DNA of 64,000 nt from Halichondria panicea (Eukaryota; Porifera; Demospongiae; Suberitida; Halichondriidae): positions 13,078,198-13,142,197 of the forward strand of contig NC_087377.1 of the NCBI RefSeq assembly GCF_963675165.1. Direction: 5' to 3'. The notes beneath the pieces were generated by a model. That model was not told the origin of the DNA. It did not search any database and was given only the letters and a program-made list of their open reading frames with translations. Each line of letters opens with the position of its first letter. The stretch's first letter is position 1. Both the position numbers and the translations under genes were made by a program. This document shows positions 18 through 61,740 of this stretch, piece by piece.

Positions 18-2133
18 TTTCTTTGAATTCCTTGGACCGTCATGCCTCAGCTCACTGTAGTCTCCCTGAGCAGTGACACATACACTACTGTAACACACTG
101 AGTTTATGATCTTACCTGAAGTCCCGACATTTCCACAACATCTTCATTGAGCTCATCTGATTTCTGTCTCCTCAGTAACAGCAGGGCAATCACCACAATG
201 ACCACGAGGCACACAACCACCAGTATACCACCAACAACACCACCTACTACTATAGGTCCAATGCCAGTACCTGGGGGTGATATAATTATGTACAGAGCAA
301 TGTAAAACTAAACAAGTTTATATATAAACATCACCTTCAGTCCTAACTACACACATGATTGCTTCGGGTTCAGTGCTCCATTCTCCAGCATTATTGCAAG
401 TGATGGTGTTGGGCCCAGTCAGTGAGAGTTCATTGTCACACTGGTAAGTCAGCACTGTTCCCTCCAACACTGTCTCGTTCAACCTTTTGTAGTTCACTAT
501 AGTCCCGTTTAAGGGCTCGTCAGGAACAGTGCAGTTGACTAAAATTAGATCAAGGATTGGAAACGGTCGATATTCTGCGATACAACTGTACTGTATTACC
601 TGGACTCACTCTGCATACCAAGCTCCCAGGATTCTCCACCCACTCTCCCCTACCCCCTACATCAGTGCATGTGCTGGTCCTCACATCAAGGGGGAACAGT
701 CCATCATCACAGCGATAGATGACCTGTGAACCCAGTGAGAAGGGTGGTGTTTCCATACCATTGATGTCCACAGTGCCATTGTACGGTACTGTTGGAGAGT
801 CACAGGTGACCGAGGGATCTAATAAGGTCACCATAGAAATATGTACACATTCAATCTGTTATGTATGATATCTATACCTGTAACTGGACTGCTGCAGTCA
901 AAGGTCCCAGGGTCAGGAGACCACCCACTACTGCCACAGGTTGAGGTTATCACTTCACTGTCTCTGCAAGTGAAGGTGAGCATGGATCCACCAATAGTGA
1001 CAGGAGGTGTGTTGGTGATAGTCACATCAGCAGCAGTAGACGGTGTGGGGCACACAACTGCATTAAGGAGGAGGAATTATATAGTATTAGCTATATAAAT
1101 CATGACTGACTTAGATCCATAATTAAACTCTCTTGGCTCATTCCTGCACAGTTGTCAGCTCTGATAGTCACATTGTAGAGAGTGTTGTAGGAGACAGTTA
1201 TCTGTGCCGAGATGGCCTCCACGGTGACTGGTGACCCGGACAAAGGTGTTGGGGAGATAGTAACGACATAGTTGACAGACACACTGCCAGTAGAGGAGGG
1301 AGGGCCCCACTCCAGGGTAGTATTAGAGTAGCTGGGTTGGTTTAGAGTGAAGGAGACTCTTGGACTCAAGGGAGGGGAGGGTGGATCTGTGTGTGTGTGT
1401 GCATTATACAGGGTGTCTTACAGGATTTTGAAGTAGAGGGGGGAAGTAACAAAAGTAACCAGAAAATTTTGCTACCCTGTTAGTATGTAAAATTGCCAGC
1501 TATGGACACTCAGGTCATACATGAATGCACATTTTAGGGGGGGGGGGGAGAAATTGGATCTAGGGGGGGATATCTCCCCTTCCCCCCTGTACAAAACCAT
1601 GGCACATCATACACTGCATGCACTGTATTATTCGTTTCACGGAAACCAGGCAACGCCCAAACTCTGTCATTCTCATTCATCAACCACTCACCAGCAACAG
1701 TAATGGGAAGAGGACCTTCTCGTGAGCTAGCCCCAATACACTCCACCATAAAACCCTCCACAATGGAGGCCTCGGACAGTGAAGTGAGAGTGGCAGTGAC
1801 ATTATTTTCACTCGTGTCATTGCGAACACCACGGAATGCTGGAATACCTTCTGTGGCATCATCATTATTAAAACGTAAAAATATGCTGAACCGGGCCCCT
1901 TGCAGTGGAGTGATATCCCATTGTATAAAGCTACCAGGCAGAGTGCAGGTGAAGGTGACAGTGTCATCAGGACAAGCCACAGTGGGGGTTATTGTCAAAT
2001 AAGCTGCTTTGTGTAACATTGTTTAATAATAATTTATTATATACATCTACCTACCTTCCCCTCGGCATGACCAACTTAAAATAAGCAACGCTAGAGTGAC
2101 AGCAATCTGTAGATCTGATGATCTTGCATTCAT
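18..2133 (-). CDS. Ig-like/FN3/triple-CCP type I membrane receptor, copy A (3' end outside window)
   Basis: Multi-exon cell-surface receptor. Exons read on the minus strand: 2133-2055 signal peptide (starts MNARSSDLQIAV, hydrophobic core, ends CRGEG); 2006-1692 Ig-like domain (Cys pair around CPDDTVTFTC); 1386-1111 fibronectin III (LEWGPPSSTGSV, NYVVTISP); 1057-878, 818-600 and 538-335 three CCP/sushi modules, each with four Cys and a late Trp; 270-116 transmembrane helix of about 25 residues followed by RRQKSDELNEDV; 65-18 a tail exon containing GDYSELRHDG. Domain exons join in phase 1, the usual rule for shuffled extracellular modules. The donor at 17 shows that the tail continues beyond the window. 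A Tyr in DYSEL could be a signalling site (inference). Ligand unknown. Exons 1-6 are almost identical to copy B at 41742-43561 in inverted orientation. Domain identity is fairly sure; function is not. Confidence 0.82.
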
Positions 2134-2240
2134 CTCTGCTACTCTCTCTCTCTATATATTAGGTCTGCACAAAAACCATTCGCTACTAGTACTCTCTCTC
2201 TATATTTAATATTTAGATCGAAGGTCTGCACAAAAAAAGA
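2134..2240 (-). promoter_or_regulatory. Upstream region of receptor A with a local duplication
   Basis: The stretch just upstream of the receptor A start matches the upstream region of copy B (41691-41741). In A, a block containing GAATGG, TTTGTGCAGACC and a (GA)n tract is present twice in tandem; B has it once. No clear TATA box is visible. Likely promoter-proximal DNA by position only. Confidence 0.4.
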
Positions 2241-2345
2241 ATGGTTTCCATATGCTGACTCGAATTATGATCGCCCTCTATATCTTTTCTTTGCAGTCGA
2301 TCCCAGGCCGCACTTCCCAGGCCGGTGAAGGAGGCTAGCTCATGG

Positions 2346-2410
2346 TAGCCTCCTTCACAAAGGCCTCAAAAAGGAGGAGAGCAAAGAAGAGAGGCCTGGG
2401 ATCGAGGCTA
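2346..2410. mobile_element. 65-bp miniature TIR element (TAGCCTC family) with 9-bp TSD
   Basis: Ends are TAGCCTCC and GATCGAGGCTA. It is flanked on both sides by AGCTCATGG (2337-2345 and 2411-2419). The related inverted locus near 61655-61740 lacks this insertion. The 9-bp duplication suggests Mutator-like transposition; that assignment is inference. Confidence 0.7.
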
Positions 2411-2436
2411 AGCTCATGGGTGCTTCTACTCTATAC

Positions 2437-2753
2437 ATAGTCTCATGAATCAGCCGCACCTTTGGTGTCAGTCTGAGCACTCTTTATGTGAAGTCATTTC
2501 ACAATGGAATGTATTACGTCACTATACAAGCTGACAAAACCATAAAAATGCAACCACATCCGCTATCTCTGCTCAGCCACATCACTGCTTGCTGCTCAAC
2601 CGCATGTAACGTTTCACTATTTGCTGCCTCCTATTCAAGTCACCTGATGCTTGTGAGCAATCTCATTGGTCACGTTGGAAATCCACTGTGGCCCATGAGT
2701 TCACGTAAAGAGTGCTCAGACGGACACCAAAGGTGCGGCTGATTCATGAGACT
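2437..2753. mobile_element. 317-bp TIR element with 9-bp TSD
   Basis: Inverted ends of about 50 bp (AGTCTCATGAATCAGCCGC at the left, its complement at the right) enclose AT-rich non-coding DNA. The flanks are ACTCTATAC at 2428-2436 and 2754-2762. The related locus at about 61640 (opposite strand) has a single uninterrupted copy of this target, so this is a true insertion. A diverged copy lies at 45700-45945. Confidence 0.75.
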
Positions 2754-2762
2754 ACTCTATAC

Positions 2763-3030
2763 GGTGGCCCAGAGAGTTCACAGAGTACGATTGACCTTCG
2801 CTAGTAGACAGTACAATTTACCTTCGCTAGTAGAGAGTTGACCGCTAGTGGACAGTACGATTGACCTTCGCTAGTGGACAGTACGATTAACCTTCGCTAG
2901 TGGAGAGTAAAAGTGACCTTCGCTAGTGGGCAGTACGATTAACCTTTGCTAGTAGAGAGTATGATTAACCTTCGAGTGGAGAGTTCTAGTAAAAGCTCAC
3001 CTTCTAGCTAGAGACCTTTACCTATGTACG
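2763..3030. repeat. Minisatellite of about 25-30-bp units (CCTTCGCTAGTRG)
   Basis: Seven or more degenerate units containing CCTTCGCTAGTGGACAG and variants. The same array with the same flanks occurs inverted at 60672-60855 plus 61548-61640. No coding content. Confidence 0.75.
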
Positions 3031-3106
3031 TAGGGGGGTGCTGACCTTATATTTGACCTTTGCTACACACAGATGCTATCTAAAGAGCCATGTGTGGCCT
3101 GCTTTG

Positions 3107-3744
3107 CAGGGCCGTAAGAAGATTTTTAAGTGGGGGAGGCAGAAAAAAGGAATGGATCCTCTCCTTGCGACGCAGGGGGTGGGTCCCTCCCGTCCCGCCG
3201 GAGGCGAACTTTTTACATTTTGAGAGATAAACAGCTAGGAGAAAGATACATAAATGAAATGATCTGCATGTGAGCTGAGAGCTATACGCAAAATAATTTA
3301 TTCGACGTGTGTTAGTGGAAGCAAAGTCACGAGCAACTGCTTCAAAGTCAAGCGAATCAGTTAGCTACTTGTGTATATAAAGTAAGAATAGACGCTGGGG
3401 ATTCATCGAGCTTCGTAAGAAGAAGGTCTTAGTTCGCCTATACCTCATTCATATAATGGGCAGGCTGAGGTAGTACTGAAGAGAAAAAAGAATGAATATT
3501 GTGCCATAATGAGCTCTAGCTATATAACTTTCAGCTGCATGTGGATCAACTTACTTTAGTTACTGTACAGTGTTGTTGCAACAAACCACATGCATTTAAC
3601 CATAATAACAGGACTGTGATCTGCTGGACTCTGCAGAGGAGCCCCACCCCATTTCACTGTCTGAAAGCCAGGGGGGCTCTGCCCCCCTGGTTTACAGAGT
3701 GGGTGGGCAGTTTCCCCCTAGCCCCCCTGGTTCTTACGGCCCTG
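3107..3744. mobile_element. hAT-like non-autonomous TIR element
   Basis: Left end CAGGGCCGTAAGAA is inverted at the right as TTCTTACGGCCCTG. CAGGG ends are common in hAT elements. Both sides abut CTGCTTTG-like sequence, overlapping the right end by three bases, so the 8-bp TSD is uncertain. No transposase inside. Confidence 0.5.
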
Positions 3745-4260
3745 CTTTGGACAGCAGGCACAACACTAGATGTCCTAGTGACTCACTAGCCCAGTAGGCT
3801 ACAGTTGAACAGTAAGCAATTAAGCTGCATGGTTGCTTATTTGTGTGCATGTTGGCGCGGCCGGAGGCCGGGAGGCATGCATAAAACATTTGAAACACAT
3901 GCTTTGGTTCCAAGTTTACATTAATAAGTGCATGCACCTTCTGTATATTATACATACAGAAGGTATTGATTTATATACCATGGTACAGAGACTATTAATG
4001 CACATTTAATGTAAAACTTATAACAGAAATTATGGTCAGGGAAGTGAAGTGAAGTGAAAATTTATCATGTATAGTGAGGTTGCATGTATTATTGTATCCC
4101 ACGTTTCTTCCTCTGGAAACTCTCAGCTGAAAAGTAATAACATTGTTATTAGATTATAATGCTTACTTATTCCTCCTTTTTATATACCTTTTACCTTCTT
4201 ACAAGTAGATGAGTCTAGTGCCACAGTAGTTAGTGTATATGGTGCATTGTGAGTATACTT
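3745..4260. other. No gene recognised
   Basis: AT-rich DNA with short open frames only. A GAAGTGAAGTGAAGTG run at about 4036-4060 is the only local repeat seen. Confidence 0.5.
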
Positions 4261-4455
4261 ACCTTAGCGGGTAATTTTCGTGGGGTAAAATAATTATTCG
4301 TTCAACTCGAGAAAAGGTGGTTTTCGTGAGTCGTTTAGTCGCGTGGCTGCACGGCCGGCATTCCTATGTTCCGATAAGCCACGCCTACGTTAAAATTTTG
4401 TGGAGGTCAGCCTGCCCACGAATATTTTACCCCACGAAAATTACCCGCTATACGG
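4261..4455. mobile_element. MITE with TAGCGGGTAATTTTCG ends
   Basis: About 195 bp. The left arm TAGCGGGTAATTTTCGTGG is the reverse complement of the right arm, which ends in GCTATACGGTA. Belongs to the same broad family as 6089-7132, 9715-9925 and 48237-48453 (ACCGTATAGCGGG-type ends). Non-coding. Confidence 0.65.
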
Positions 4456-4776
4456 TATTGTCGTGATAGTGTGGTTGGACTCCGCCCAACTATTTCGGTA
4501 CGTGAATGTGAACTCGACTATACTACTGCACTGCACCACACTGTAATTTTTAGCGTACAAGATTTCAAAAACTATTATACCACAATGCTTCATTCCCCAC
4601 CTAGTACCTATGGATTAATTATGATGTGCAAAACCAAGATGACATTTGTAGCAACATTAGCGGTAAGTTGCTGTAGGTACATGTATTATAATATATTTTA
4701 TATTTTTAGTTATTGAGTTGCATCTATCGATGTCAGTCCCACTACCCCCCCCCCCGTGTGGCATAGTGGGGACATA

Positions 4777-4935
4777 CCGTAAAACCTCTATTTAAGGCAA
4801 CCATCTAAATATGCGACACTTGGACATTTCGCCCATATTATAACACCATATAAATTCATTTTTTGTGTACATTAAAACTCTACTTTCGCAAAACGTAATT
4901 ATTTAAAAGTGTCGCCTTAAATCGAGGTTTTACGG
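4777..4935. mobile_element. 159-bp Tc1/mariner-type MITE with TA target duplication
   Basis: Inverted ends CCGTAAAACCTC and GAGGTTTTACGG, continuing into ATTTAAGGC on both arms, flanked by TA. Size, ends and TA duplication fit a mariner/pogo-derived MITE. No coding content. A poly-C tract (4744-4755) lies just outside. Confidence 0.7.
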
Positions 4936-6088
4936 TAGTTAAGTTAGGATTTGATTCAGCAAGTAATCCCGAGGTGCGGGATAGGGTGGGCAATTTGACT
5001 TCCTCAATATACAAACTTTCAACAGTAATATCTAGCCGCGTGTAGTCAAATCCCGATGTTGTTAAGTGGGCCTGGGGGGGGGGTATGGGAGGGGAAGTGG
5101 GGATTTTATTTCAACCAGGCTCCCAGAAGTGGGGCAGTTGATATTGATGTAACCTGGAATGACAGCTTATCGGAAGCCACGCCTTTAATCTTTGCATGTT
5201 ATAGCAGATACTTCTAATTAAAGAACAATTGTCGTGGACTTAATTTTCGTGTAGGATTACTAACCCACAAAATCAGCACCCCTTGAAAATTTCGCGCTAT
5301 ACTCATAATTATAACTTGTTGCCTGAAGTTGATCCATGGTTAACTTCAGTCAACAGATTGCCTGAGTGATCAAATTTGTTATTATTACTAAACCATACTA
5401 CCTATGCCGTCATAATTATCTGAACACGTATCAAAGTGGCCATTTGTGAGTGGCAGAGATTAGTGAACTGATCAAGTTGTATGTAGTTTAAGGTAGTTAA
5501 ACGTAGTTAACGAGGGAGCGGCCTTACCTCGAGGTAAGGGGCACACAGACATACAGGCGTGCCCCTTCTTGCTAAGCTACCGCGCATGCGTAGCCTACAC
5601 GTGCAAGTACACCTGCTTACAGAACTGTCTCACGAGCACACTGGCTGCTGCTCAATTTTCGAGCCTTCCCCCCCCCAGTCGGTTACCACCTATCACCTAT
5701 TTCCATCTGACGATGTGATTACCGGGAGGGGGCTGAATGAGGGCCCCTCAAAAATAACTGTTATTTCAATACCCTGTTATAGTATGTAAAATTGCCAACT
5801 CAGTCCTACAACTAGTACCTGAATGCAAAAAGGGGGGGAAATTGGAGTTAGGAGGGGGATATCCCCCCTTTCCCCCCCTGTATGACACCCTCTCAGGACT
5901 CCCCCAAAACCTAACCACAGTCATGTGACCTTCGACTTCTAGGGCGACAGAGTCCACGGGACACCTGACTCCAGCTTAGACCCGGTACTGCCAAAATGTT
6001 AATAATATCCGCGCACCGGATATGACACTCTAGTTATTGCAACACTCTTGTGACCGTAGTTAAATGAAGAGAGACCCTGCTTTTACTA

Positions 6089-7132
6089 TACCGTATAGCG
6101 GCAAATTTTCGCGTGTGCACATTTTCGCTATTTCGTTCCAGAGCCCTCAGCAGACATTTTCGTGGGTTTTACTTTTCAATGCTAGGAAATCACACCATAG
6201 ATATATAAGAAGGGAGAGGGATGGGAAACGCTACATAAATAGCATTGACGATCCGCGTTTCAGTCAATGTTTTCTTCTTTATTTCCTCCAGCCCATGCTT
6301 TTAGCTAGTACTAGGCTATAAACTAGCTACTGAGCTCCATGTATTAGCAATGGCTAGTGGAACAGTCACAACAAGGTAGCAGCAATAGTTAGTGAGACCC
6401 CTCCAGGCAGTAAAAAGCAGCTTGGACAGGCAAATTCTTGAGAGGAGCTCTGTCTGTATTGTTGAGTATTCTAGTACAGTCACAGACATGATAGGAAATG
6501 TAGCAAAGTTCTGTCGTAAATTATTGTGCCGATACGATGAACCAACTATCAATGAATACAAAGAGACATTTACCTACATTCAATCATTGATATAACTTTC
6601 TAAATGAGTACACAAAAAGTATGCTTGTCAAAACCAGAACATTACTGACCAACCTAAAGCCAAGTAGCTTTGATTTTACTTGCATACAATGCCCAGCTAC
6701 TTAAGAAAGAGGGAATCATTAATATTTTGGGCTGTAGTCACAGCCTCTCCTTGTAGAAGGTACACAAAGCCACTAGATAACCGAAACGATAATACTTGGT
6801 GAGATACACAACGCTTCTATAGGAGGCGTGGATGCTCAGCACAGGACTAAAAGTCCCAGTGGGGAGCTGTGAATGATAGTAATAACATTTCCCGCTTGGT
6901 TGGCGGGGTGTCTAAAGGCGAAACGTGGATCAACTTTTGGCATTACACAGAAGTGATTGTGCGCACGTGCTCCGTTTCCCATCCCTCTCTCTTCTTATAT
7001 CTATGATCACACCCACCAATAGCTTTGCATGTGAAATACTGGTGTGTGGGAGTTTATCCATTTTCGCGTTAACTTCTCTGCCCTCGAAAAACGCAAAATG
7101 TTGCATCCCACGAAAATTTCCTGCTATACGGT
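6089..7132. mobile_element. ACCGTATAGC-end MITE carrying a nested 810-bp element
   Basis: Ends ACCGTATAGCGGCAAATTTT and AAAATTTCCTGCTATACGGT are inverted. The flanks of the nested insertion (6196-7005) match the uninterrupted middle of the sibling copy at 9715-9925, which shows GGAAACCACACCCACCAATA at the equivalent site. The host MITE is therefore about 230 bp without the insertion. Non-coding. Confidence 0.65.
6196..7005. mobile_element. 810-bp TIR element with 7-bp TSD (CAKAGAT..GAAACG class)
   Basis: Inverted ends of about 33-35 bp start CATAGAT and end GGGAAACG. Flanked by ATCACAC at 6189-6195 and 7006-7012. Inserted inside another MITE. It shares end motifs and TSD length with 31272-32811 and 33061-33826. 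No transposase recognised inside. Confidence 0.72.
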
Positions 7133-7594
7133 ATAAAGTCCAATCATTAATCCATTTTTCAGACTCTATTTCAATAATTTAGTCCTTAGTGCCGTAACCA
7201 GTAGAACAGAGCTAAGGCCACTCCAAATCAATTACTTGTTTCTCATCCCCCTGCCGTACCTACTTTGAGCCTGGTCAATTTACCTTGAAAACATACCGGT
7301 TGCTCATCACAAGTTGACCTTTGACCTGCTACTAGCGTGATTTAGTCAAGCACGTGATCTAGCACATAGCCATAGCTAGCTATAGTATCAAAAGAAGACT
7401 GGCTGCTAATTATCTTGCAAAAGAAGGTCTGCGTGATTACAGACACTCCTGCAGACACTCATAGTACATTTGTACACTACTGGTCTACTGTATATGATGC
7501 CTGAAACTTCAGCAACTAATTTTAAAACCAACTATTAAAACAGGAAGTGACTTCATAATTAATAGACCACAACTTCTGGTACCGGCCTGCCGGT

Positions 7595-8150
7595 GCACTA
7601 TTTTTATGCCTCGAGGCGTAGCCGCACGAGGGATACGGTAAAGCTGACTGTGTGTGTGTCTGTGTGTCTGTCTGTCTGTGTGTCTGTTCCAGCTGTAACT
7701 GCTCAACGGTTGCAATGCGACGAAAGCTAACAGCTTCTATAAGGCTTCTAGCCACGTTCTCTTGGATTTTGATTCGTGGATTAGCAAACTAAAGCTTCTT
7801 TCTCGAGTTATGGCTAGTTTGACTCACATTGAAGGCTGTTGCAGTCTCTTCAGAATCTTTCATAGCATCATCTGTCCGCACAAACTTTCTATTCAACATA
7901 TGAGTTAGCCTTGCACTAAAGCGCTAGCTTTTTGTTGGCTACAATACTCAGAAAATATCTGTTAAAACAGCTAGCTAAGCTAGCATGCAGTAGCCATTTG
8001 TGAAATTGATCTCTTTGGACACACCCTTTAATTATTCCAGTGGATGTAATGCGCATGCGCGCTCATTCCCATGTGTGAGAAAATAATATCCAATCCAGAT
8101 CCAGATCCTCCTGGCAGAATCATCTTTGTCTTGAGGGCCTGGTAAGCCAC
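7595..8150 (+). repeat. Hairpin-plus-microsatellite repeat, subfamily 1
   Basis: Begins with a small hairpin (CCTCG..CGAGG enclosing AGGCGTAGCCGCA) and GGATACGGTAAAGCTG, then a (GT)n tract, then about 450 bp of conserved interior. Other copies lie at 9135-9560, 14075-14560 and 18565-18905. No coding frame. Superfamily unassigned; a Helitron-like or SINE-like origin is possible. Confidence 0.6.
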
Positions 8151-8542
8151 AAAACACTACCATATATTACAATATAGATAACAATATGCATGTACACAGG
8201 TCTTTTCTTCTTAGATATTATATACACTGAACTACAGATCCTGGAAGAATCAATTTTCTTCTTTCTTGAGGTCCTGGTAAGCCATATAATACAATAAATA
8301 ACAACAATAGATGCATGTAAATAAGTCTTTTCTTCTCAGTGACTTTATATAGATAAGCTAACTTTAATAAATTCATTATAGAAACTAATAATTATAACAC
8401 GGCGAGAGGCATTAGCACAGCGCCAGCTTGAACACTAGTTACCACTATTTTTAAAGATCAGGGTACAAGTAATAGTTGTACCATGGATATCAAGGGTGTA
8501 TTGGATTTGCCTCCAAGGGAATACATACAACTGCTTGAGGTA

Positions 8543-8792
8543 CAGTAGAACCTCGATTATCCGGACACCTTGGTTCCAGAGGCAGCCCGGATAACTGAAT
8601 ATACCGTATAATCGAATAGATAAACCACGCCTTGATCCACCCACTTTATTGATAAACAGCGGCATGGTTGTCTGCGTATGCGCATGCGCAGAAGATAAGC
8701 AGACCTGTCTCCATAGTAACAGCTGCAATGCGCATGCATTCCAAGGACACGCCCATTTTCTAAACAGAAACTTCCAAGCCAGATAATCGAGG
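8543..8792. mobile_element. pogo-like MITE, right end damaged
   Basis: Starts CAGTAGAACCTCGATTATCC after a TA. The right arm shows GATAATCGAGGTT but lacks the terminal bases. CAGTAGAACCTCG ends resemble pogo/Tigger-class elements (family knowledge). Non-coding. Confidence 0.55.
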
Positions 8793-8817
8793 TTACCTTG
8801 AGCAGCTGTAGCAGTCT

Positions 8818-8848
<31 letters not shown>

Positions 8849-9134
8849 ACCGTATACCTCGCTTGCGCATGCGCACCGAGGCATAATAACAATGCACACG
8901 CAGATATCCATGGTACAGGTAGCTTGTAATGAACACATATTGCAATTAGAAGCTGTTATCCAACCCATTTACAACTGAGTAGTAGTAAACACTCTTTGAT
9001 CTCTGCCGTGCATGCACTGTGCACATTTTGTGTGGTGTGCTTGCACTTCACAAACCACATTTACAACTTTAGACACCCACTTCCAATAGGGTCGGTGAAT
9101 CTGATTGGATATTGACTTCACAATGTGATCCAAG

Positions 9135-9482
9135 TGTGTCACAGTAGTGTCCTAAGGGGTGTGTCGGCAAGTTACAAGAAATTAAGAATGGCTACTAAAA
9201 TAGCTAGCTTCTTTAACAGCTCTTTCTGACTATTGTAGCTAACAAAAAGCTAGCGCTTTAGTGCAAGGCTAACTTATAATTATGTTGAATAGAAAGTTTG
9301 TGCGAACAGATGATGCTATAAAAGATTCTAAAGAGGCCTTCAATGTGAGTCAAATAGTCATAACTCGAGAAAGAAGCTTTAGTTTGCTAATCCACGAATC
9401 AAAATCCAAGAGATCGTGGCTAGAAGCCTATAGAAGCTGTCAGTTTTTGTTGCATTGCAACCGTTGATCAGTTACAGCTGGA

Positions 9483-9517
<35 letters not shown>

Positions 9518-9560
9518 CAGCTTTACTGTATCCCTCGTGCGGCTACGCCTCGAGGCATAA
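9135..9560 (-). repeat. Hairpin-plus-microsatellite repeat, subfamily 1 (inverted)
   Basis: Interior matches the 7595-8150 copy on the opposite strand. It ends with a (CA)n run at 9486-9515 followed by the CCTCGTGCGGCTACG hairpin. Confidence 0.6.
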
Positions 9561-9687
9561 TGAAAGAATCACAATGCCTACCCAGACTGCACTGAGAGTG
9601 AGATGGGGTGAGGCTGCTTGCTTGCAACTGGCTAGGTTGAAAAAGTCTGAGAAATCTGTGCTCCAGAATTCCATGTTCATGTTGCGG

Positions 9688-9956
9688 TAGCCTCGAATCC
9701 ACGCTGATCAAAATATCGTATAGCAGGAAATTTTCGTGGAGGTGCAAAATTTCGCGTTTTTCAAGGGCAGATCGATCGAGTAGTTAACGCGAAAATTAAA
9801 ACTGGTATAAACTCCCACGCACCGGTATTTCAGTATTTCACATGCAAAGCTATTGGTGGGTGTGGTTTCCTGGAATTGAAACGCGAACATTTGCACCCGT
9901 GAAAATTTCCCGCTATACGGTATATGCGTATTTTAATCGACGTGGATTCGAGGCTA
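9688..9956. mobile_element. TAGCCTC-family element with 9-bp TSD, interrupted by a MITE
   Basis: Ends TAGCCTCGAATCCACG and CGTGGATTCGAGGCTA. Flanked by ATGTTGCGG (9679-9687) and ATGTTGCAG (9957-9965), one mismatch. About 210 bp in the middle (9715-9925) is an ACCGTATAGC-type MITE inserted into the AT-rich core, so the host element was about 55-60 bp. Confidence 0.68.
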
Positions 9957-19900: not shown

Positions 19901-21914
19901 ATAGAATGGAATGTGCGTGGGAGTTGCATACTCCTCTTCATACACTCCTGTTAAAACTAATAACTTATTGTGTGAAGACTATTCATGATGTAGACGCAGT
20001 GCTGTGGCATCCAGGTGAGCAAGCTCAGATCTGACAAACACAACTATACCTGCTGGCCGTGCAAGTCCAAACGACTACTATACCCGTGGCGGCTCACGCG
20101 CCTCGGATAATGATACTAATTACGTAAAACATGCAACAAAGTGATTCCCGAAATCCTTCCGTGCAACGGTAGAGGGCAGCGGTGCCTGACTACTCAACCA
20201 CGATGAGTAATTGTGATCCTTCATATAATTATACAGCACGAGTGGAACCACCATCCGATGTGAGGAGTTTTTACACTGTTAAGTGTGCTGAGCTTATAGC
20301 AAGTCGATCAGTTCGTGTCTGGTGGACCCCACCTGCGAACTCCCAATTTGACATTGATTATTATCTTGTAAGAGTTTACAGGAACAGAGTGTTGTACACA
20401 ACTATAACGTCTACTAACAATAGTCTGAATGTTAGCATTCCATTTGGAGCAATAAGTGCTGATGTTAGAAGTGTTTCCACTTGCGGCACTATCAGTGCTG
20501 CAGGAGCATCAACAGACGAATCAGTTAATGAAGGATGTCCAGGTTTGTTTGAAACAAATCCTCATGCATGAATCTAATTATCTTTGTTCCCTTTTGTAGA
20601 GTTTTATTTTGGTTTTTTGGTTCCAACACTAATCGGTTTTCTCCTCATCGTCACTGTTATCATACTGGTTATGTTTCTTGTGATAGCAAAGAGGAAGGTG
20701 AGCATAATAATTATTATAATAATAATAATAATTTATACATAAATTGTGTATGCGTGTACTGCCTTGATGTTAAATATCGACAGTTCACGCATGTGTACTT
20801 AGCCTTATTTTGCTCCTCTTGCAGATATCACTCTTGCAAGTAAATGATGAAAAGGTGTGTATGTATGTATATCTATTGATATGCATGTAACAATGTTGGC
20901 TGTATCAAAATGGTAGTATATATATATATATATATACAGTAGACTCTCGCTATTCCGGCTCTCTGAAGTACGGCCACCTCGATATACAGTAGACTCTCGC
21001 TATTCCGGCTCTCTGAAGTACGGCCACCTCGATATACCGGCCATTTGGTTTGGCACGGAATGCTAGCTATATGTTTACTGCACAAAACTCACCCTGAAGT
21101 ACGGCCACTCGCTATTCCGTTTACTGGCTGTCCCAAACACATGCTAGCTATATGTTTACTGCACAAAACTCACCCTGAAGTACGGCCACTCGCTATTCCG
21201 TTTACCGGCCAGTGCTGGCTGTCCCAAACAAGGTTTTCAATGTAATTTTATACGTATATTACGGCCGGATATGACGTTTTGGGTGTGGTTTAGCAAATAA
21301 AATTGGATTACACTATATTGGATTACAAATTGGATTAGAATAGAGAACAGAATGATTCATTATCCTTTATTATCCTCGAGACAAGAACCGCAAAAGTAGT
21401 CATTAGAGATTCAAGGTAAGGTCGTTTTTAAGCCGCGGCTATTTTCTGAGCTACAGCCACCTCGCTATTCCGGCCAAGCTGCATGGTCCCAAGGGTGACC
21501 GGATTAACGAGAGTCTACTGTAATGATAATAACCTTTGCATAATTATGTTAAATCAGCTGTGGATTTTCTAAGAGTATGTAGTAGTAATTAGGCCTTGAT
21601 AAATAATTATTATGCTTTTTTTCACCCATTATTCTATTCTTTAATTCTTGAAAATGTGCCTATTATTCACATAAAAAATCCGATTATTCTCATAAAAGTG
21701 CAAAAAAATGCGACATATTAATTATAGACATGGACATTGATGCCTATTATTCCCAATATTGTTTAGATGCCTATTATGCTTAAATTATTACGAGCATAAT
21801 TTATCAGGGCCTAGTAGTAATTTATAATTTCATATTAATTTTGTCTCACTACTTTTATGTTTGATATTTCCCCAGGGCGAAGCTCTTGAACCACATCGAC
21901 AGTCATCGCAATAA
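11975..21914 (+). CDS. Ig-like/FN3 membrane receptor without CCP modules, copy C
   Basis: Likely exons: 11975-12011 (possible end of a leader; first exon not found), 12072-12422 Ig-like domain with Cys residues and several N-x-S/T sites, 20237-20542 fibronectin III (VRVWWTPP, IDYYLVRVYR), 20600-20697 transmembrane helix (FLVPTLIGFLLIVTVIILVM) ending VIAKRK, 20825-20854, and 21876-21914 with stop. The cytoplasmic tail is very short (about 25 residues) and has no Tyr motif. Extracellular junctions are phase 1, as in copies A and B. The long intron 12423-20236 is filled with repeats, and a pogo-like MITE sits in the last intron. Probably a diverged paralogue; the 5' end and signal peptide are unresolved. 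It could also be two fragments, because the intron is unusually long for this region. Confidence 0.6.
13425..13950 (-). repeat. Hairpin-plus-microsatellite repeat, subfamily 2 (inverted)
   Basis: Carries a (CA)n tract at 13870-13912 followed by a hairpin of CCTCG..CGAGG type enclosing a GCGCATAC core. The interior matches 46360-46915 on the other strand. Confidence 0.6.
14075..14560 (-). repeat. Hairpin-plus-microsatellite repeat, subfamily 1 (inverted)
   Basis: Parallel to the 9135-9560 copy, ending in the CCTCGTGCGGCTACG hairpin and AGGCATAA. Confidence 0.6.
14624..15520. mobile_element. Non-autonomous piggyBac-type element with TTAA duplication
   Basis: TTAA at 14620-14623 and 15521-15524 bracket inverted ends CCCTTTCCCGGCTTT. 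TTAA targets and CCC-starting ends are the signature of piggyBac elements (family knowledge). Just inside the right end is the 18-bp palindrome GGACGACATATGTCGTCC. No transposase frame inside, so it would need one supplied in trans. Confidence 0.78.
15763..16835. mobile_element. TIR element with CCGTATATGC ends
   Basis: Left end CCGTATATGCTCGATCAG and right end CTGATCAAGCATATACGG are inverted; TA at the left. Subterminal TAGTAGCC motifs repeat at both ends. About 1.07 kb, with no recognisable coding sequence. Confidence 0.55.
17217..17483. mobile_element. 267-bp MITE with about 34-bp inverted ends
   Basis: AGGCCACTCCAAGTGATACT at the left is repeated in inverse at the right, continuing through CTGGTTTCTGGTCC with no mismatch seen. 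AT-rich middle, non-coding. Confidence 0.72.
18565..18905 (+). repeat. Hairpin-plus-microsatellite repeat, subfamily 1 (shortened)
   Basis: Starts with CCTCGAGGCGTAGCCGCACG and a short GT run, then a shortened version of the 7595-8150 interior. Confidence 0.58.
19365..20110. mobile_element. TIR element ending just upstream of the receptor C FN3 exon
   Basis: Left TTACCCGAGACGCGCGTGGG and right CGCGCCTCGGATAA arms are inverted, both continuing into CACGGGTATAGTAGT. The interior has two diverged tandem copies (about 19440-19570 and 19590-19715) of a unit also present at 43640-43745. Non-coding. Confidence 0.55.
20937..21520. mobile_element. pogo-like MITE with internal duplications, in receptor C intron
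   Basis: CAGTAGACTCTCGCTATTCC start and GAGAGTCTACTG end. The first 50 bp or so are duplicated in tandem at the left end, and an inner block (ATGTTTACTGCACAAAACTC) is also repeated. Flanked by a TA-rich run. Confidence 0.68.
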
Positions 21915-29019: not shown

Positions 29020-29500
29020 TCCGACCTCCTCTGGAACCAGAGGAGGAATGCCAGTGTCAAAAGGTCACTAATTAAAACACCATGTGGCCCTATGTTTTAC
29101 ATGTAAAACTGAGTTTACCCTCGCGCCCCTGAGTTTATACACCATCAATAGCTTGATCCTCTTTATAATCACAACAGAAATCGGTTGAGCTATCGCGCCC
29201 CAGAGGAATCAGCTTGAGAGAGAGGAGATCCAGGATTTAATTGCAACCTTTGACCTTTTATTGCATTCTTCAAAACCACAAGATATGGAAATTAGCCTTC
29301 TGTGGCTAGGGTATAAATTTTGATGTACTGGCTTGCTGCACTGGATAGATCTAGGTATAGTAAGCAGGCATATAAAGAACAGAAGCGCTAAGCTGCTACA
29401 TGTATATGCAGCAAAGGTCAAGAACCCAGAACAAGAATGTTTAATCCTTCATTAAACGTGACCCTATTGACCCTGGCGTTCCTCCTCTGCTCTGGAACAC
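29020..29500. mobile_element. TIR element with CTCCTCTGG ends
   Basis: ACCTCCTCTGG..CAGAGGAGGAATGCCAG at the left is inverted at the right (CTGGCGTTCCTCCTCTG). The right end abuts half of a TAGCCTC-family element (29503-29535, GCCGTATTTTAATCGGC then GATTCGAGGCTA). Non-coding. Confidence 0.5.
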
Positions 29501-29789
29501 CAGGCCGTATTTTAATCGGCGTGGATTCGAGGCTAGGGCGTAACTAAAAATTTTACGGAAAGGAGGCAACACCCCCGCAAAATGTTTGCCCGGAAACCAC
29601 ACCCACTAATTATCTCGCGTAGACGTGCATGCAAATGGCAATTTACCTGCTCTTCCTACATCAACAAGACTAAACTGTGAAGATCTATATACCTATAGTT
29701 ATAGCTAGTTATCCAGAAGTTAGCTATAGCTAGAGCTATTAAAAACTAGTGATGTGAGTCACATGACACTTGAAGTTCTATAGTACAGG

Positions 29790-39541: not shown

Positions 39542-39732
39542 CCGGTGTCATAGGATAGAACCTCCGGGCGACAGTTTCTCCCCCGGAGCCTGCGGTCTTA
39601 GGACAATGCCTCCCCCCGGTGGTTTTGTCCTAGGACAGAATCCCCGCCCCCAGGATATATCATCCGGGTACATGTACCCTGTCAAAAAACCTGTCAAAGC
39701 TTTAGTATAATAAGCGTGCGCGTGCATGCGAA

Positions 39733-40463
39733 ATGTATAGACTGTTAGCAATCAGAATGGCTACTCAACAAGAGTATGAGGACATACTGCTGTACAAGAC
39801 TGCTGCCAGCAATGCTGGCCAGAAGAAATACAGAGACGGGCTTTCCACTAATGACAAGAGAAGTATAAGAGACAAAGCTCAAAGGTATGCTCTGCAGCAA
39901 CAATGCTTATACCTGCCTGAGAAGGACAGCACTGGCATCCATAGAATGAGAAGAGTTGTGGTGAAGCAAGAGGAGAAAAGCAGGATACTAAACATGTGCC
40001 ACGATGGACTGGATGGAATGCATTTTGGGAGAGACAAGACCTATGGAAAGGTATATTTATCATCATATCTTATAAAGTATAATTATATCTGTTTCATGCA
40101 TGTAGGTTGCTCAGGATTTCTACTGGAAAGACCTACATGCTGACGTCATACAGCTCTGCAAGCACTGCGACAAATGCCAACGAACGAATCACCAACTGCA
40201 GAAGCCCAGAGCAGAACTACATCCCATCCCTGTGACAAAGGTCTGGTACAGAGTTGGTATTGACTTGGTAGGACCTGAAACAAGCTCTGGAAACAAGTAC
40301 ATTATCACGCTCTCAGACTATTTCTCTAAGTGGCCTGAGGCTGCCCCACTCCCATCAAAATCAGCAGAAGGTGTAGCAAAATTTCTGTTTGACACATTTT
40401 GCAGGCATGGGTGGCCAAAAGTGATTCAATCAGACCAAGGAAGAGAGTTTGTCAACGAAATCA
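39733..40463 (+). pseudogene. Integrase-type transposase, truncated before the third catalytic residue
   Basis: Two exons: 39733-about 40050 and from about 40107. An HHCC zinc-binding segment (CHDGLDGMHFGRDKTYGKV, then WKDLHADVIQLCKHCDKCQ) is followed by the DDE core: first Asp in VGIDLVGPE, second Asp in VIQSDQGREFVNE. The third acidic residue and the C-terminal part are absent, because the sequence passes straight into the Ulp1-like segment, suggesting an internal deletion. Related to gypsy integrases by motif style. Not expected to be active. Confidence 0.7.
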
Positions 40464-41075
40464 ATGTACACATGCAGCTGTGCAAATCTTCTTTGTTGAA
40501 GAATGACAGCACTGGATTGCCACTTCTCTGTTTAAGGGTGAACTGTATTTGTACGACAGCTGCTTCAATGGAACGCTTTCCCCAAGTACTGAGCTCCAGA
40601 TAGCACAAGTGTATAGCCCATTAATTCAATGCAATGGGCTGTTGATTTCTGTGGTGGCTCTCCAGCAGCAAGAGGGTGCTAACAACTGCGGACTATTTAG
40701 CATTGCTGCTGCATATCACGCTGCTATGAACGATAATGTGGATTCTCTAGTGTTTGATGAGGCCAAAATGAGAGCACATCTCATTAAGTGCTTTGAGAAG
40801 GGCAAACTCTCACGGTTCCCTCGCACAAAGAAAGCGATGCCCAAAAGACCAACACCACAAACCATTGCCATTACAATATACTGCATGTGCGAGAGACCGG
40901 ACTCTTTTGAGGATATGGTCATGTGTGACAAATGTAGTGAGTGGTATCATAGCCTCGATTCAAGGCCGTATTTTAATCGGCCTGGAATCGAGGCTAGTGG
41001 TATCACTATCGCTGTGCCAAAATTCACAAAGAACCAGTAGGTAATTGGTTTTGTTCTGGTTGTATCACTTTATGA
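40464..41075 (+). pseudogene. Ulp1-like cysteine protease plus PHD finger, interrupted
   Basis: Ulp1-like features: His-Trp (QHWIATSLF, in a frame that meets a TGA just before it), Asp in ELYLYDSCF, and Gln/Cys in QQQEGANNCGLFSI, so the catalytic set is recognisable. A PHD-type finger starts YCMCERPDSFEDMVMCDKC..WYH, is cut by the 47-bp element at 40950-40996, and resumes as CAKIHKEPVGNWFCSGC to the TGA at 41073-41075. With the insertion the frame instead ends at 41040. In Ginger-type elements such domains are fused to the transposase; here they survive as a broken reading frame. Confidence 0.65.
40950..40996. mobile_element. 47-bp micro-transposon (TAGCCTC family) with perfect 9-bp TSD
   Basis: Ends TAGCCTCGATTC and GAATCGAGGCTA, core GGCCGTATTTTAATCGGCC. 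Flanked by GTGGTATCA at 40941-40949 and 40997-41005. Removing it and one TSD restores the PHD finger's Cys/His order, which confirms both boundaries. Confidence 0.88.
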
Positions 41076-41741
41076 TTTGTGCACTTTTGGTTATATTTAT
41101 TGTACTTCTTTCTCTTGCATTGTTGTATAATTATATTGAGTATTGAATTTGAGATCTATAACATAATAGATACAGCATCTAGTTAGGCTTTGTCTATGGC
41201 TGTTACTTCGTAGCCTAGACTAGTCCTCTCAGATTACCTGTGGACTGACTTTCACCTGCACCGCAGAATGGGGGAGCTCTGGTCCTGGGGTAGGAGCTTT
41301 TGTCCTAGGACAGAAACTCCGGGGGGAGGAAATATCCTAAGGACGGAACCCCCCCCCCCGGAGCTCCTGTCCTGGGGGAGGCCGTGTCCTGTGACACCGG
41401 CCTGTAACAGTGACTAGAGAGATCTGCCACAGGATAGAATCTACCACAGAAGTCTACATGATCTCAACCAACAGGTAAACAATAATATTACTCACCAGCA
41501 CCAGTGCAGTGAACGTAGCTAGTTCAGCAAAGATCTTGCGCACGCACTACAATAGTCTATAGTAGCATTTATTTCCGCAGTAGTTAAAATGATTGAGTAA
41601 TATTTGAGTTTTCATATAAATAGAACAAATATTTAGACAGGATGCTAGAACATTAGTGTCCAAAATACAATGGCAATTGTAGGGGAGTCTGTAGCGAATG
41701 GTTTTTGTGCAGACCTAATATATAGAGAGAGAGTAGCAGAC

Positions 41742-55038: not shown

Positions 55039-56093
55039 TATATATAAGGGTTGTTATAAAACAGGGAATGAGAAATGAGGAAATGAGAAATAAGAAATGA
55101 GGAAATGAGGAAATAAGAAATAGGAAATGAGGAAATAGAAATAGAATAATAATAATATATTTTGGTTACGATCATCACCATGGCATTAATTTTCATCACA
55201 ATAATTATGACATTGTTATAATTATTATTATAGATGCACAAAAGTATAATGACTGATATCAGCCAAGAAGCTAGTAGGTGACTAAGTATTTAGTTATCAA
55301 ATATAATTATAATTATAGTGGCACCTCCACACAGTACAGGTTGTCGGACACATTGTAAGAATTAAATTTTACCATCGCTTCAGATGGCACAGTGAGCTTT
55401 CTTCATTAAAGGTAGCATCAGCTTTAACTATATTATAAGCATTGCTTGTGAGAATGGTAATGGGAATTGCTTTCTTCACCCTGTAGCGAGATTGGATATG
55501 ATACCAGTACAGTGTACTAATGTCATTACTTCCTGCAGCTTTATGACAGGACTGGCAGATCATTAGAATTTGCTTGGTTTGACAAACAGTTTTGGAGGTT
55601 TCTTTGCTGTTACTTACATGTAGATGTTGACATTGAGTCCAGTCCATTGACTATCACTTGCCCACCGGATTGTGAAATCGGTGAATGTATTCCCAGTATA
55701 GCCACGCATAGGTAAATTGTTTGAGACTGTGGGACTGTAGGACAGTACATGTAAGTACCGTTACGTAGGTAGATCTGATGTCTGAACCATGCCAGTCGTA
55801 TACATGGCACACAAGTAGATAGAGGTAGAGAGTGTCACACCGTGTACCAGAGGAACATAAGTTCTGTATGGTGGCAGAGCACCAGGAGACTTGTCACCAG
55901 GAGGTACGTACCTGTAGCTCAGTAGATGTTAGCTTCGTCTTCAGACTTGCTCTGCCCATAGATACGCTCTGCCTAACAGCTCATTTCTCGTTCTCATTTC
56001 TTCATTTCCTCATTTCCTATTTCTTATTTCCTCATTTCCTCATTTCTCATTTCCTCATTTCTCATTCCCTGTTTTATAACAACCCTATATATA
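55039..56093. mobile_element. TIR element whose ends are GAAATGAG minisatellites
   Basis: AAGGGTTGTTATAAAACAGG plus about 90 bp of GAAATGAGG/GAAATAAG units at the left are inverted at 55985-56093. About 1.05 kb. No coding domain recognised inside; several short minus-strand frames look random. Confidence 0.65.
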
Positions 56094-58945: not shown

Positions 58946-60671
58946 TTGCCTTAAAATGTTCTTTGTGAGGTATAAAATAACCTTGTGATGCAAACATTTT
59001 AAATTAAAGTTTCTGAGGAACAGGAAAGGCTTAACGTTTTACTTCCTGTTGAGGTGTCAAACGTGACGTCAGAGTAGGTACTAGCATCGATCTGACTGGC
59101 AGACACATGCATGTGATTCTAGCTATGATTTTCAAGCCAGTTGAGTCTTTCCTACTCGATCCTTCTCATATCTTTTGAGCATGAAAAAAGCTGCAGTGAA
59201 GATGAAATAAGCGCTGTGGAGCCATATCTGTATGAGCCAGAAAGCCTTCCCATGCTAGTTCGAGTGGTGATGATGATGGTGACAATGAAGGCAGGATAGA
59301 AAATGTTAATTGTATATACTACAGTAGACTCCGGTTAATCCGGTCACCCTTGCCGGTATGGGTTAAATACCCTAACATCAAAAAATGCACTCTGTCTATC
59401 TCTTCCCCAAAAGCTTTGTGCGACAATGTCCAAACGAGCACCATCCTCGCGATTGGCTGTCCTGTGTTCAAATTGCTCCCCAGTTACAGGTTGTAATCCA
59501 GGTTCTATTTTCACGTTGTGGCAGACTTCGCTCATTATAGGGTTGCAGTTATATCACGAATCTCATTGTGGCGTATCGATGGAAAGCCTCCCCTGCATGG
59601 GACAGCTAAGCGCATGTTCTACTGTGAAGAACTTTCCACAAACACAGTGGGAGGGTAAATATTCTGGGTAATTTGAAGCGCATGATGCGCACTATCATCC
59701 CTGCAATAGGTACCAAGCCGTATTTTAATCGGCCTTGAATCGAGGCTAATAGGGAGTTTGCCAGTCACTCTACTACACACACACACTACCGTATAAATAT
59801 ATTTCGATTGGAACATTTCTAAGAAATGGTGCTGATACTAATGTGTACTAGGTGAATGACCAAGCTACAACATACCCAAAAATCAAGTGTTTCCATGGAA
59901 GCATATAAGGTGGTGGGTTTGTGGTGATTTAATAGCAAATTGTTATAGTGGGTAATCGGTAGTATGTACAGCTAAGGCCTAAGGTCCTATAGACTTCATC
60001 ACATAATTGTTCAATACATGGTTTAGGTTTCCTGACCATCCTTTATGGGTCTTACAAATGTCCACAGTGCATGTAATTCATGATTTACTGGTTTTTAGGT
60101 ATTAAAACAGCTTCTGAACTAACAGTTCTGTTTATGGTATGTTAATTTTATGCAAATGTTTGAATTCTTGCGATTTCATTATTTTCATTGAATATAGCTA
60201 ACACTCAAAATTGTTGTTACAGTAACTATTCAGAATAATCTCCCAAGTTTAGAAACAGCAGAGTTTCACTGAAACATTGCATTAATAATGAAACTGGTTA
60301 ATTACTAACTATGACATGAGACTCTGGTAAATTAAGTTTAGCATATTGTGCTTTCAGACGTTCAATAGTTGTTTTTCTAAGGTGCTTGGTGGTAGTTAGT
60401 GTAAAACCAAACAAGATGACAGACATTTTGGGAATCTGGTCGGTCCAGTTGACCACCTTTCTCTTATTTTTTTCGTCTCACACTTTCCAATGCTTCCATG
60501 ATGAGGTGTAAGTGCCTTCCATCCACACAACATCTATTGTAGTGTCAAGCACTTGTGTGCAGAGACCAATAACAGGTTCCCGTGCATAATTTTCGCAATG
60601 CACTGCCACATGTCATCAATTTTCAGAGTTGTTATGTCAGCGAGACTTGAATTGCGAGGCTGTCGAGGCCC
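58946..60671. other. No gene recognised
   Basis: Contains a pogo-like end at 59321-59345 (CAGTAGACTCCGGTTAATCC) and half of a TAGCCTC-family element at 59712-59749 (GCCGTATTTTAATCGGCC, GAATCGAGGCTA). 60400-60660 has short LINE-like or transposase-like stretches too degraded to name. Confidence 0.4.
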
Positions 60672-61740
60672 ACGTACATAGGTAAAGGTCTCTAGCTAGA
60701 AGGTAAACTTTTACTAGAACTCTCTACTAGCGAAGGTTAATCATACTCTCTACTAGCGAAGGTTAATCGTACTGCCCACTAGCGAAGGTCACTTTTACTC
60801 TCCACTAGCGAGGGTTAATCGTACTGTCCACTAGCGAAGGTCAATTGTACTGTCTCCAAGTCTTCCAAACAACTGCTAGGTAGAATACATAGGAACTTTC
60901 GTGACGCCCCAAAACATCTTCGCCACAAGATATATCAAACCACTGTACTCCCGAAGCTAGACTACTGCGGGGCAGTTTGGGACCCCCACCAACTCAAATC
61001 CACAAAATTACTGGAAAACGTTCAGAAATTTGCGGGAAGAGTTATAACTCAAGACTGGTCATCAAGCTACCCGTTTCTGTGCTCCTCCCTGGACCTAAAG
61101 CCACTGTCTATCCGAAGACGCATGCAAAAGTTGAAGCTTTGCTTTAAAATCCTAAGAAAAGACTCATGCATCCCTCCAACAGCCTTCACTCCCCACCCAC
61201 AACCATCTCCAAGATGTTCAAACTCAGTCCAACTCTTCACCCCGTTTGTACCAACAGATGCACACAAATTTTCATATTTCATAGATGTCATCAAACATTG
61301 GAATGCCTTGCCTAATGAAATTGTCTCGGCACAGACCCCGCTCATGTTTAAAAACCACCTGCACCGTTTGTATACCTGCACTCCGTAGTTACTGCATGCA
61401 TGCTCTGAACAAACCTATAACATTTTGTTTTTTTTACTGCCTTGTTCGTCTGTTTGTTCCTAGGTAGACAACGTTTTATTAGCCTAGCGCTATTTGTTGT
61501 AAACCCTGTATGCTTTTTTGCATAAAAAATTTTAAAGATAAAAAAAACTGTCCATGCACTAGCGACGGTCAACTCTACTAGCGAAGGTAAATTGTACTGT
61601 CTACTAGCGAAGGTCAATCGTACTCTGTGAACTCTCTGGGCCACCGTATAGAGTAGAAGCACCCATGAGCCAGCCTCCTTCACCGGCCTTCCTAAGTGAA
61701 GTGGGAAGTGCGGCCTGGGATCGAGGCTACACCGCCATGA
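60672..61740. repeat. Inverted relative of 2288-3030, split by a LINE
   Basis: Minisatellite units TAGCGAAGGTYAATCGTACT at 60710-60855 and 61548-61640, then CTGGGCCACCGTATAGAGTA and a GATCGAGGCTA-ended element (61665-61730). The order matches the left locus on the opposite strand, minus its two insertions. Confidence 0.75.
60856..61548 (+). pseudogene. 5'-truncated LINE (reverse transcriptase C-terminus, 3' UTR, A-rich tail)
   Basis: Plus strand: KLDYCGAVWDPHQLKSTKLL, NVQKFAGRVITQDWSSSYPF, LKPLSIRRRMQKLKLCFKIL, and FIDVIKHWNALPNEIVSAQT before the stop at 61386-61388; then 160 bp of 3' UTR ending GATAAAAAAA. Inserted into the minisatellite. An inverted copy of only the last 45 bp or so of this tail lies at 61767-61812. 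Confidence 0.78.

Follow-up and report, generated by a model that had tools for sequence, protein, structure and literature searches.

The window analysed here, a 64,000-nucleotide stretch of the Halichondria panicea contig NC_087377.1, contains a 47-bp palindrome at positions 40950-40996 that lies between perfect 9-bp duplications. It is a genuine element of a known kind of mobile DNA, and an unusually small one. We consider it probable (roughly 0.8) that this element derives from an AcademH-like DNA transposon family of the same genome, of which it would be a tip-only miniature. Its layout is TAGCCTCGATTC-AAGGCCG-TATTTTAAT-CGGCCTG-GAATCGAGGCTA; as a single strand it is predicted to form a hairpin of -20.3 kcal/mol (z -8.45), and it has no coding capacity. 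A preliminary description of this DNA had reported a PHD finger interrupted by a 47-bp transposon with a perfect 9-bp target duplication; the two tips and the two duplication copies were found to be exact in the sequence. The element and its host sequence comprise the following features:

40941-40949, + strand: target-site duplication (TSD), left copy, GTGGTATCA; exact, and single in empty paralogues
40950-40996, no strand: tip-only palindromic element of 47 bp, recognised from other copies genome-wide and from its DNA fold
40950-40961, + strand: 12-bp tip TAGCCTCGATTC, A-type end (CAAGG next); exact
40962-40984, no strand: hairpin A-AGGCCG-TATTTTAAT-CGGCCT-G, from the fold
40985-40996, - strand: 12-bp tip, inverted copy, C-type end; exact
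40997-41005, + strand: TSD, right copy, GTGGTATCA; exact, and single in empty paralogues
40106-40603, + strand: host ORF with integrase core (PF00665) and H2C2 (PF17921) domains, by Pfam
40507-41040, + strand: host ORF with a PHD finger (PF00628) cut by the insertion, by Pfam (profile positions 1-25)
39542-41402, + strand: host repeat shared with C1:2459012 and C1:1440099, with approximate limits converted from L098 403-2263

The 47 bp and the additional 9 bp amount to 56 bp, and the reading frame of the PHD-finger ORF is therefore shifted. The window ORF reads CDKCSEWYHSLDSRP..., and the empty copies L131 and L133 read CDKCSEWYHYRCAKIRKEPVGNWFCSGC; the latter two translate through as CMCKRPDSFEDMVMCDKCSEWYHYRCAKIRKEPVGNWFCSGC, a complete PHD finger. 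Coverage of the Pfam PHD profile is accordingly 1-25 in the window ORF versus 1-47, i.e., the full finger, in L131, which bears out the earlier claim that excision restores the finger. The host sequence is itself repeated, with 672 candidates genome-wide; of the 40 copies that were scored, three are filled with the 47-mer (the window, C1:2459012 and C1:1440099), 37 are without it and none carries a long insert. Among the empty copies, 33 align as two pieces that overlap by 10 bases (n = 32) or 8 bases (n = 1), the 10-base overlap being that expected from a single 9-bp target plus one chance base, while four others align continuously at 87% and are 52-54 bp shorter. The empty site was furthermore found in six fetched paralogues (L129-L134), in which the left and right matches adjoin without a gap. 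Their left flanks are 98.8-99.4% identical to that of the window over 483-485 bp, the closest differing at 3 of 485 bp; the right flanks are merely 88-94% alike, with differences that are mostly gaps, and the age of the insertion is thus uncertain. These empty sites, together with the other copies described below, rule out a chance palindrome.

The window copy and that of L099 have approximately 1.86 kb in common and are unlike each other beyond it, which indicates that the insertion reached its second place as part of the host repeat, whereas L099 and L100 are alike across the whole 3.5 kb and represent a larger duplication. The window copy would thus derive from entry into one copy of the integrase/PHD repeat, which later spread the insertion. 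The disrupted ‘gene’ is a repeated relic with integrase domains. By eye, the integrase and PHD parts of the window host copy (39542-41402) seem to be joined by an internal deletion. A Ulp1-like label for the host ORF was considered and has no Pfam support.

The preliminary description had named a scarcity of other copies, or copies lacking 9-bp duplications, as observations that would speak against it; a genome-wide search for pairs of exact 12-bp tips returned 277 places of 34-64 bp (backwards control, 0), and most of the copies sampled carry 9-bp duplications. The scan covered three further size classes, which hold 11 (65-95 bp), four (125-185 bp) and 46 (545-600 bp) places; three of the four places in the 125-185-bp class look like neighbouring elements, and the 46 places were counted from 38 forward and 39 reverse matches. 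Duplications were assessed in 61 copies of 34-94 bp, i.e., 49 of the 50 places listed for 34-64 bp, all 11 of 65-95 bp and the window copy. The 9-bp flanks agree exactly in 37 and with one mismatch in seven (44/61), as against exact agreement in 0.49% of 3660 mispaired flanks, both figures including paralogous copies of single insertions. Agreement is limited to the nine positions (46-52 of 61 copies inside versus 11-32 of 61 outside). When paralogous insertions are merged and 9 bp with at most one mismatch, or exactly 8 or 10 bp, is accepted, 37 of 51 independent sites possess a duplication, which in 30 cases is an exact 9-bp one. By class, these represent 33 of 40 sites at 34-64 bp and 4 of 11 at 65-95 bp; of the 14 without a recognisable duplication, seven belong to the 65-95-bp class. 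The smallest copies with an exact duplication measure 35 bp (L047 and L121).

The exact core of the 47-mer occurs at 12 places, with exact duplications at the window, L017, L030 and seven of nine newly fetched places, and with a degenerate duplication at L106; inclusion of these nine places brings the duplicated independent sites to 45 of 60. Relative to the assembly strand, one core match is forward and 11 are reverse, perhaps by chance. A 47-bp copy at C5:6421650-6422150 (L105) has a 10-bp duplication, AGCTTTACCG.

Within the window, a scan of all TAGCC...GGCTA pairs up to 6 kb apart, with 9-bp flanks of at most one mismatch, yielded three elements, namely the 47-mer and the first two of the relatives below:

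2346-2410, no strand: 65-bp relative with exact TSD AGCTCATGG
9688-9956, no strand: 269-bp relative with TAGCCTCGAATCCACG tips and TSD ATGTTGCGG/ATGTTGCAG
59659-59748, - strand: one end of the 600-bp MITE family, 94.4% over 90 bp
29499-29535, - strand: end fragment of the 600-bp MITE family, 94.6% over 37 bp
7987-7995, - strand: empty-site counterpart GGCTACTGC of the 61-bp copy L045, by sequence comparison
55539-55547, - strand: empty-site counterpart of the 54-bp copy L035, with one mismatch within the 9 bp

A generic scan for 12-bp inverted tips with at most one mismatch, 24-400 bp apart and flanked by exact 8-10-bp direct repeats, returned four rows, among which the 47-mer is the sole 9-bp row. 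One of the others is low-complexity sequence at 61526, and two belong to a single candidate element at 21581-21822, with inverted tips TAGGCCTTGATAA/TTATCAGGGCCTA and the 8-bp direct repeat GTAGTAAT.

The tips of the 47-mer are also borne by much longer elements. By plain search, GATTAAAATACGGCCTGGTA was found 145 times in forward and 148 times in reverse orientation (control, 0). Of 20 loci fetched from these matches, 13 contain an element between 496 and 3525 bp long that is flanked by 9-bp duplications (exact in 11, with one mismatch in two) and has ends of the type TAGCCTCGATTC(A/C)AGGCCGATTAAAATACGGCCTGGTA. Six of the remaining seven loci lack such an element, while L091 has two ends and no duplication by that test. 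The base that follows TTC usually distinguishes the two ends, designated A-type and C-type. Long members end in TAGCCTCGA-type tips, next to which comes an inverted repeat (CCAGG...CCTGGT type), and DNA folding of eight long ends showed five hairpins well beyond shuffled sequences (z -3.3 to -4.6); the other three have z values of -1.1 to -1.7, i.e., about one shuffle in seven to fourteen is as good. One long form is a 600-bp MITE (L079) with 803 candidates, of which the 40 scored are full or nearly full length and 95-100% identical, which points to recent spread; its interior is partly self-complementary. By eye, positions 139-399 of L079 form a long fold-back, each half of which contains a piece resembling the first RecQ exon. 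The 3525-bp element of L075 was considered as a coding member and set aside, as its long ORFs resemble, again by eye, inserted reverse transcriptases.

Positions 40963-40996 of the window are identical, across all 34 bp, to the C-type end of the 600-bp MITE, and the reverse complement of the window element consists of the whole C-type end hairpin followed by an A-type tip. The 47-mer thus retains one entire end hairpin and a second tip. More generally, judging from their junctions, the tiny members look like two terminal repeats of long elements joined inside the end hairpins. Forms of 47 bp occur at 11 independent duplicated sites (the window insertion being entered there via its paralogue L009), and their junctions show an 8-bp overlap, CGGCCTGG, at eight sites and a 6-bp overlap at one, two being blurred by substitution. 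The A-core 58-mers contain 30 bp of each end with a 2-bp overlap, CG, at eight independent duplicated sites (six exact junctions and two with a central substitution), while the 58-bp copy L037, which has another core, joins two right ends of the C14 element described below (30 + 30 bp, 2-bp overlap). Four end types are borne by both tiny and long elements; for example, ATTAAAATA is found in L079, CATTAAAATA at C3:892501 and CTTGAACAAGG at C5:4854802.

With respect to how the tiny forms reached their sites, we lean towards insertion while already tiny. A transposase, for which DUF6589 is the candidate, may act in trans; internal deletions would have occurred repeatedly at the end hairpins, where either recombination took place or repair synthesis was aborted, with the 8-bp CGGCCTGG overlap in most 47-mers and the 2-bp CG overlap in the 58-mers; and the resulting palindromes would then be inserted by a 9-bp staggered cut. 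This order of events is favoured because one 2-bp junction recurs at several independent sites, because few exact-tip elements occupy the scanned 65-185-bp classes compared to 46 at 545-600 bp, and because the scored paralogues of the window hold 47 bp or nothing. It is weakened by the different 47-mer types and several end types, which indicate repeated origin and also fit shrinkage in place, by the 8-bp overlap, which matches an outcome of recombination in place, and by related sub-families with other tips, which include members of intermediate size (79, 92, 98, 103, 237 and 269 bp). The suggestion in the preliminary description that little more than the ends is needed requires movement while tiny, i.e., the favoured reading.

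Shrinkage in place and excision scars, taken together, are a minority possibility that deserves some weight. In the former, which shares its origin with the preferred explanation and differs in the last step, a MITE of approximately 0.5-0.6 kb would insert and later lose its interior, either because the hairpin bases slip or because CGGCCTGG repeats recombine, so that two tips remain within the old duplication, and the tiny forms would never move. The 47-mer junctions are consistent with such deletions, with overlaps of 6-8 bp where unblurred and the 8-bp type commonest (8/11), and the end hairpins and the partly self-complementary MITE would favour them; several end types, moreover, each gave tiny forms. 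We nevertheless judge shrinkage in place unlikely, given that the A-core 58-mers display a single junction with just 2 bp of overlap at eight independent duplicated sites, that the exact-tip classes of 65-95 and 125-185 bp are nearly empty, and that all three filled host copies hold the 47-mer with a long insert in none of the 40 scored. Excision scars, in which a long element left and parts of both its ends were kept, would explain why both tips and the duplication remain, as after incomplete repair; known excision footprints, however, keep a few bases, and here many sites carry identical 47- and 58-bp forms, with 277 tiny exact-tip places as opposed to 46 in the 545-600-bp class, making scars quite improbable.

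The empty targets of the 37 independent tiny sites with exact duplications share a palindromic motif that extends four bases outside the duplication: C at position -4 and G at position -3 are absent and, mirrored on the other side, C at 12 occurs once and G at 13 never, while inside the duplication G is present at position 1 in 21 sites and C at position 9 in 18. A matrix built from the 34 sites without a neighbouring tip scores 18 long exact-duplication sites (of 20 independent) above background, with p = 2e-11, a rough value since background positions overlap. For three of the 18, the score is at background level (matched by 21-23% of positions), and for the window site it is modest (matched by 7.6% of positions). 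After removal of two long sites with a neighbouring tip, a four-position rule holds for 14 of the remaining 16, versus 3474 of 9139 window positions (p = 7e-5). Long and tiny elements, as sets, thus prefer the same palindromic target motif, which would fit mobilisation of the tiny copies by a related transposase. The half-site GC(A/T)N fits the inner tip of the element itself, GCTA, which ranks 5th of 256; an exact identity of half-site and tip was softened, as GCAG, GCAA, GCAT and GCTG rank ahead.

A RecQ-family search (512 candidates, 28 scored) returned six near-identical 396-aa ORFs, and the three loci fetched carry coding elements with related tips, TAGCCTCGAGACCAGCCGTTCG..., in the form of near-identical DUF6589+RecQ transposon copies:

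L095, positions 112-5460
L096, positions 3728-9302
L097, positions 3673-9021

The 5575- and 5349-bp copies are flanked by exact 9-bp duplications; L095 (112-5460) has both tips and no matching duplication. L095 and L097 are 99.9% identical over 5352 bp, while L096 matches L095 at 99.8% over 4669 bp and at 98.8% over 694 bp; given the six near-identical ORFs, this family looks recently active. In L096, an 8693-bp element at 870-9562, with TAGCCTCCTTCGCAGCC tips and TSD ATTCAGGAC, encloses the coding element and others, i.e., the elements are nested. DUF6589 (E 2.7e-31) lies opposite the DEAD/Helicase_C ORF in L095, and both coding lineages possess DUF6589 (E 2.7e-31), DEAD and Helicase_C, with RecQ_Zn_bind in the second. 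This second lineage is represented by a 5643-bp element at C14:5650576-5656218, with GTGTTTACC on both sides, whose right tip is TAGCCTCGATTCAAGGCCG / TAGCCTCGATTCAAGGCCGCTTTAGAAGCGGCCTGGTATACC and whose left tip, TAGCCTCGACTCAAGTCCG, is somewhat different. Genome-wide, 16 of 29 RecQ match rows (37 minus eight second pieces) lie 1.1-1.5 kb from one of the 63 DUF6589 rows used (of 92), all 16 in opposite orientation; six of these pairs are copies of one element. Four more loci with coding-type matches or RecQ/DUF6589 pairs were inspected, with a complete element bearing these tips in L126 only, and a coding element with the exact ATTAAAATA core was not found. A solved-structure search with one DUF6589 ORF gave no match, and the term DUF6589 was absent from the literature searched, which was covered in part.

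According to the available text of PMC10045372, AcademH comprises the helicase-encoding Academ DNA transposons (citing Kojima 2020), and duplications of 9 or 10 bp in AcademH versus 3 or 4 bp in AcademX are related to the presence of a helicase versus a nuclease. By duplication length and encoded helicase, the coding elements fit AcademH: as in that description, the elements reported here have 9-bp duplications (with one of 10 bp, in L105) and a helicase in the coding members. DUF6589 is the putative Academ transposase. KolobokH, the RecQ-encoding Koloboks with a TTAA target duplication in the portion of PMC9587614 consulted, was rejected in view of the varied 9-bp duplications observed here.

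A Mutator-like source, which the preliminary description had proposed, is highly improbable. Duplications of 9 bp are typical of Mutator elements, if not specific to them, and 31 PF10551 matches are present in the genome, but no TAGCC-ended element with exact 8-10-bp duplications surrounds the transposase at the 10 of these loci viewed at 8 kb, three of which have other ends (AGGGATTGGCT, AGGGATTGACT and AGGGGTTGGCT), nor do four further loci viewed at 3.3 kb show such ends, and where the tips are related, the coding elements specify DUF6589 and a RecQ-type helicase instead, so that for the elements found a Mutator origin is contradicted.

Like ordinary MITEs, of which the 600-bp family (L079) is an example, the tiny copies are short and non-autonomous, with TIRs, a uniform duplication and a high copy number; ordinary MITEs are, however, about ten times longer, whereas the tiny forms are almost devoid of interior. 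AcademH derivatives of 35-66 bp were not found described in the literature searched (partial coverage). In the part of PMC3464196 consulted, the Thon solo-TIR IESs of Paramecium are similarly very short remnants (IES minimum 26 bp), of elements with internal palindromes in their TIRs, and recombination of short direct repeats within the TIR is put forward there as a speculation; Thon differs in its Tc1/mariner source and TA boundaries, as opposed to two tips and 9-bp duplications. Galileo of Drosophila mojavensis likewise includes copies cut down to two TIRs or one, though it belongs to the P superfamily and has 7-bp duplications and long, internally repetitive TIRs (PMC3573991, in part). Notable in the present forms are exact duplications around elements as small as 35 bp, a target motif common to long elements, and re-use of 9-bp targets.

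The 47-mer may illustrate the lower size limit of mobile DNA. Should the tiny forms be mobile, they would be natural deletions that delimit the minimal ends of a helicase-carrying transposon group, and it must be asked how a transpososome assembles on DNA far below bending length. Such insertions can shift reading frames and would easily be missed by repeat finders tuned to longer elements, while the common motif and target re-use make the target choice of this group testable. We tentatively propose, at somewhat less than even odds, that the 35-66-bp palindromes are themselves mobile, the AcademH-like machinery recognising ends of at most approximately 17 bp with hardly any interior. As the duplex would be too short to loop, the ends would meet through cruciform or hairpin extrusion, perhaps aided by the element's RecQ-type helicase, or be supplied by two molecules; machinery that reads half-sites outside the cut, GCWN including GCTA, would re-insert at the element's own duplications and generate element-TSD-element-TSD arrays.

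Arrays of this kind were observed. Facing tips 1-31 bp apart occur at 96 places; of the 40 distinct spacers among the 50 places listed, 11 measure exactly 9 bp (p = 4e-8 relative to a uniform expectation), while six measure 4 bp (p = 0.0017). Among ten spacer-9 loci that were fetched, L113 and L122 each have three copies of one 9-base sequence around two different elements, six have a duplication for one of their two elements (L120 with two mismatches) and two have none within the stretch; further threefold cases are L041 (one mismatch) and L071. In the window, the tip of a second element abuts the same 9 bp to the left of the 65-bp relative (2346-2410), with a 1-base overlap. The same nine bases in threefold around different elements indicate that an occupied target was used again. 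The arrays, in which different short elements share one 9-bp target, are:

C1:5871212 (L113)
C1:12912476 (L041)
C1:1194152 (L122)
L071, positions 2650-2770
window, positions 2333-2419

At L123 (645-649) and five other listed places, facing tips are exactly 4 bp apart, and in L123 the two facing ends are inverted copies of each other.
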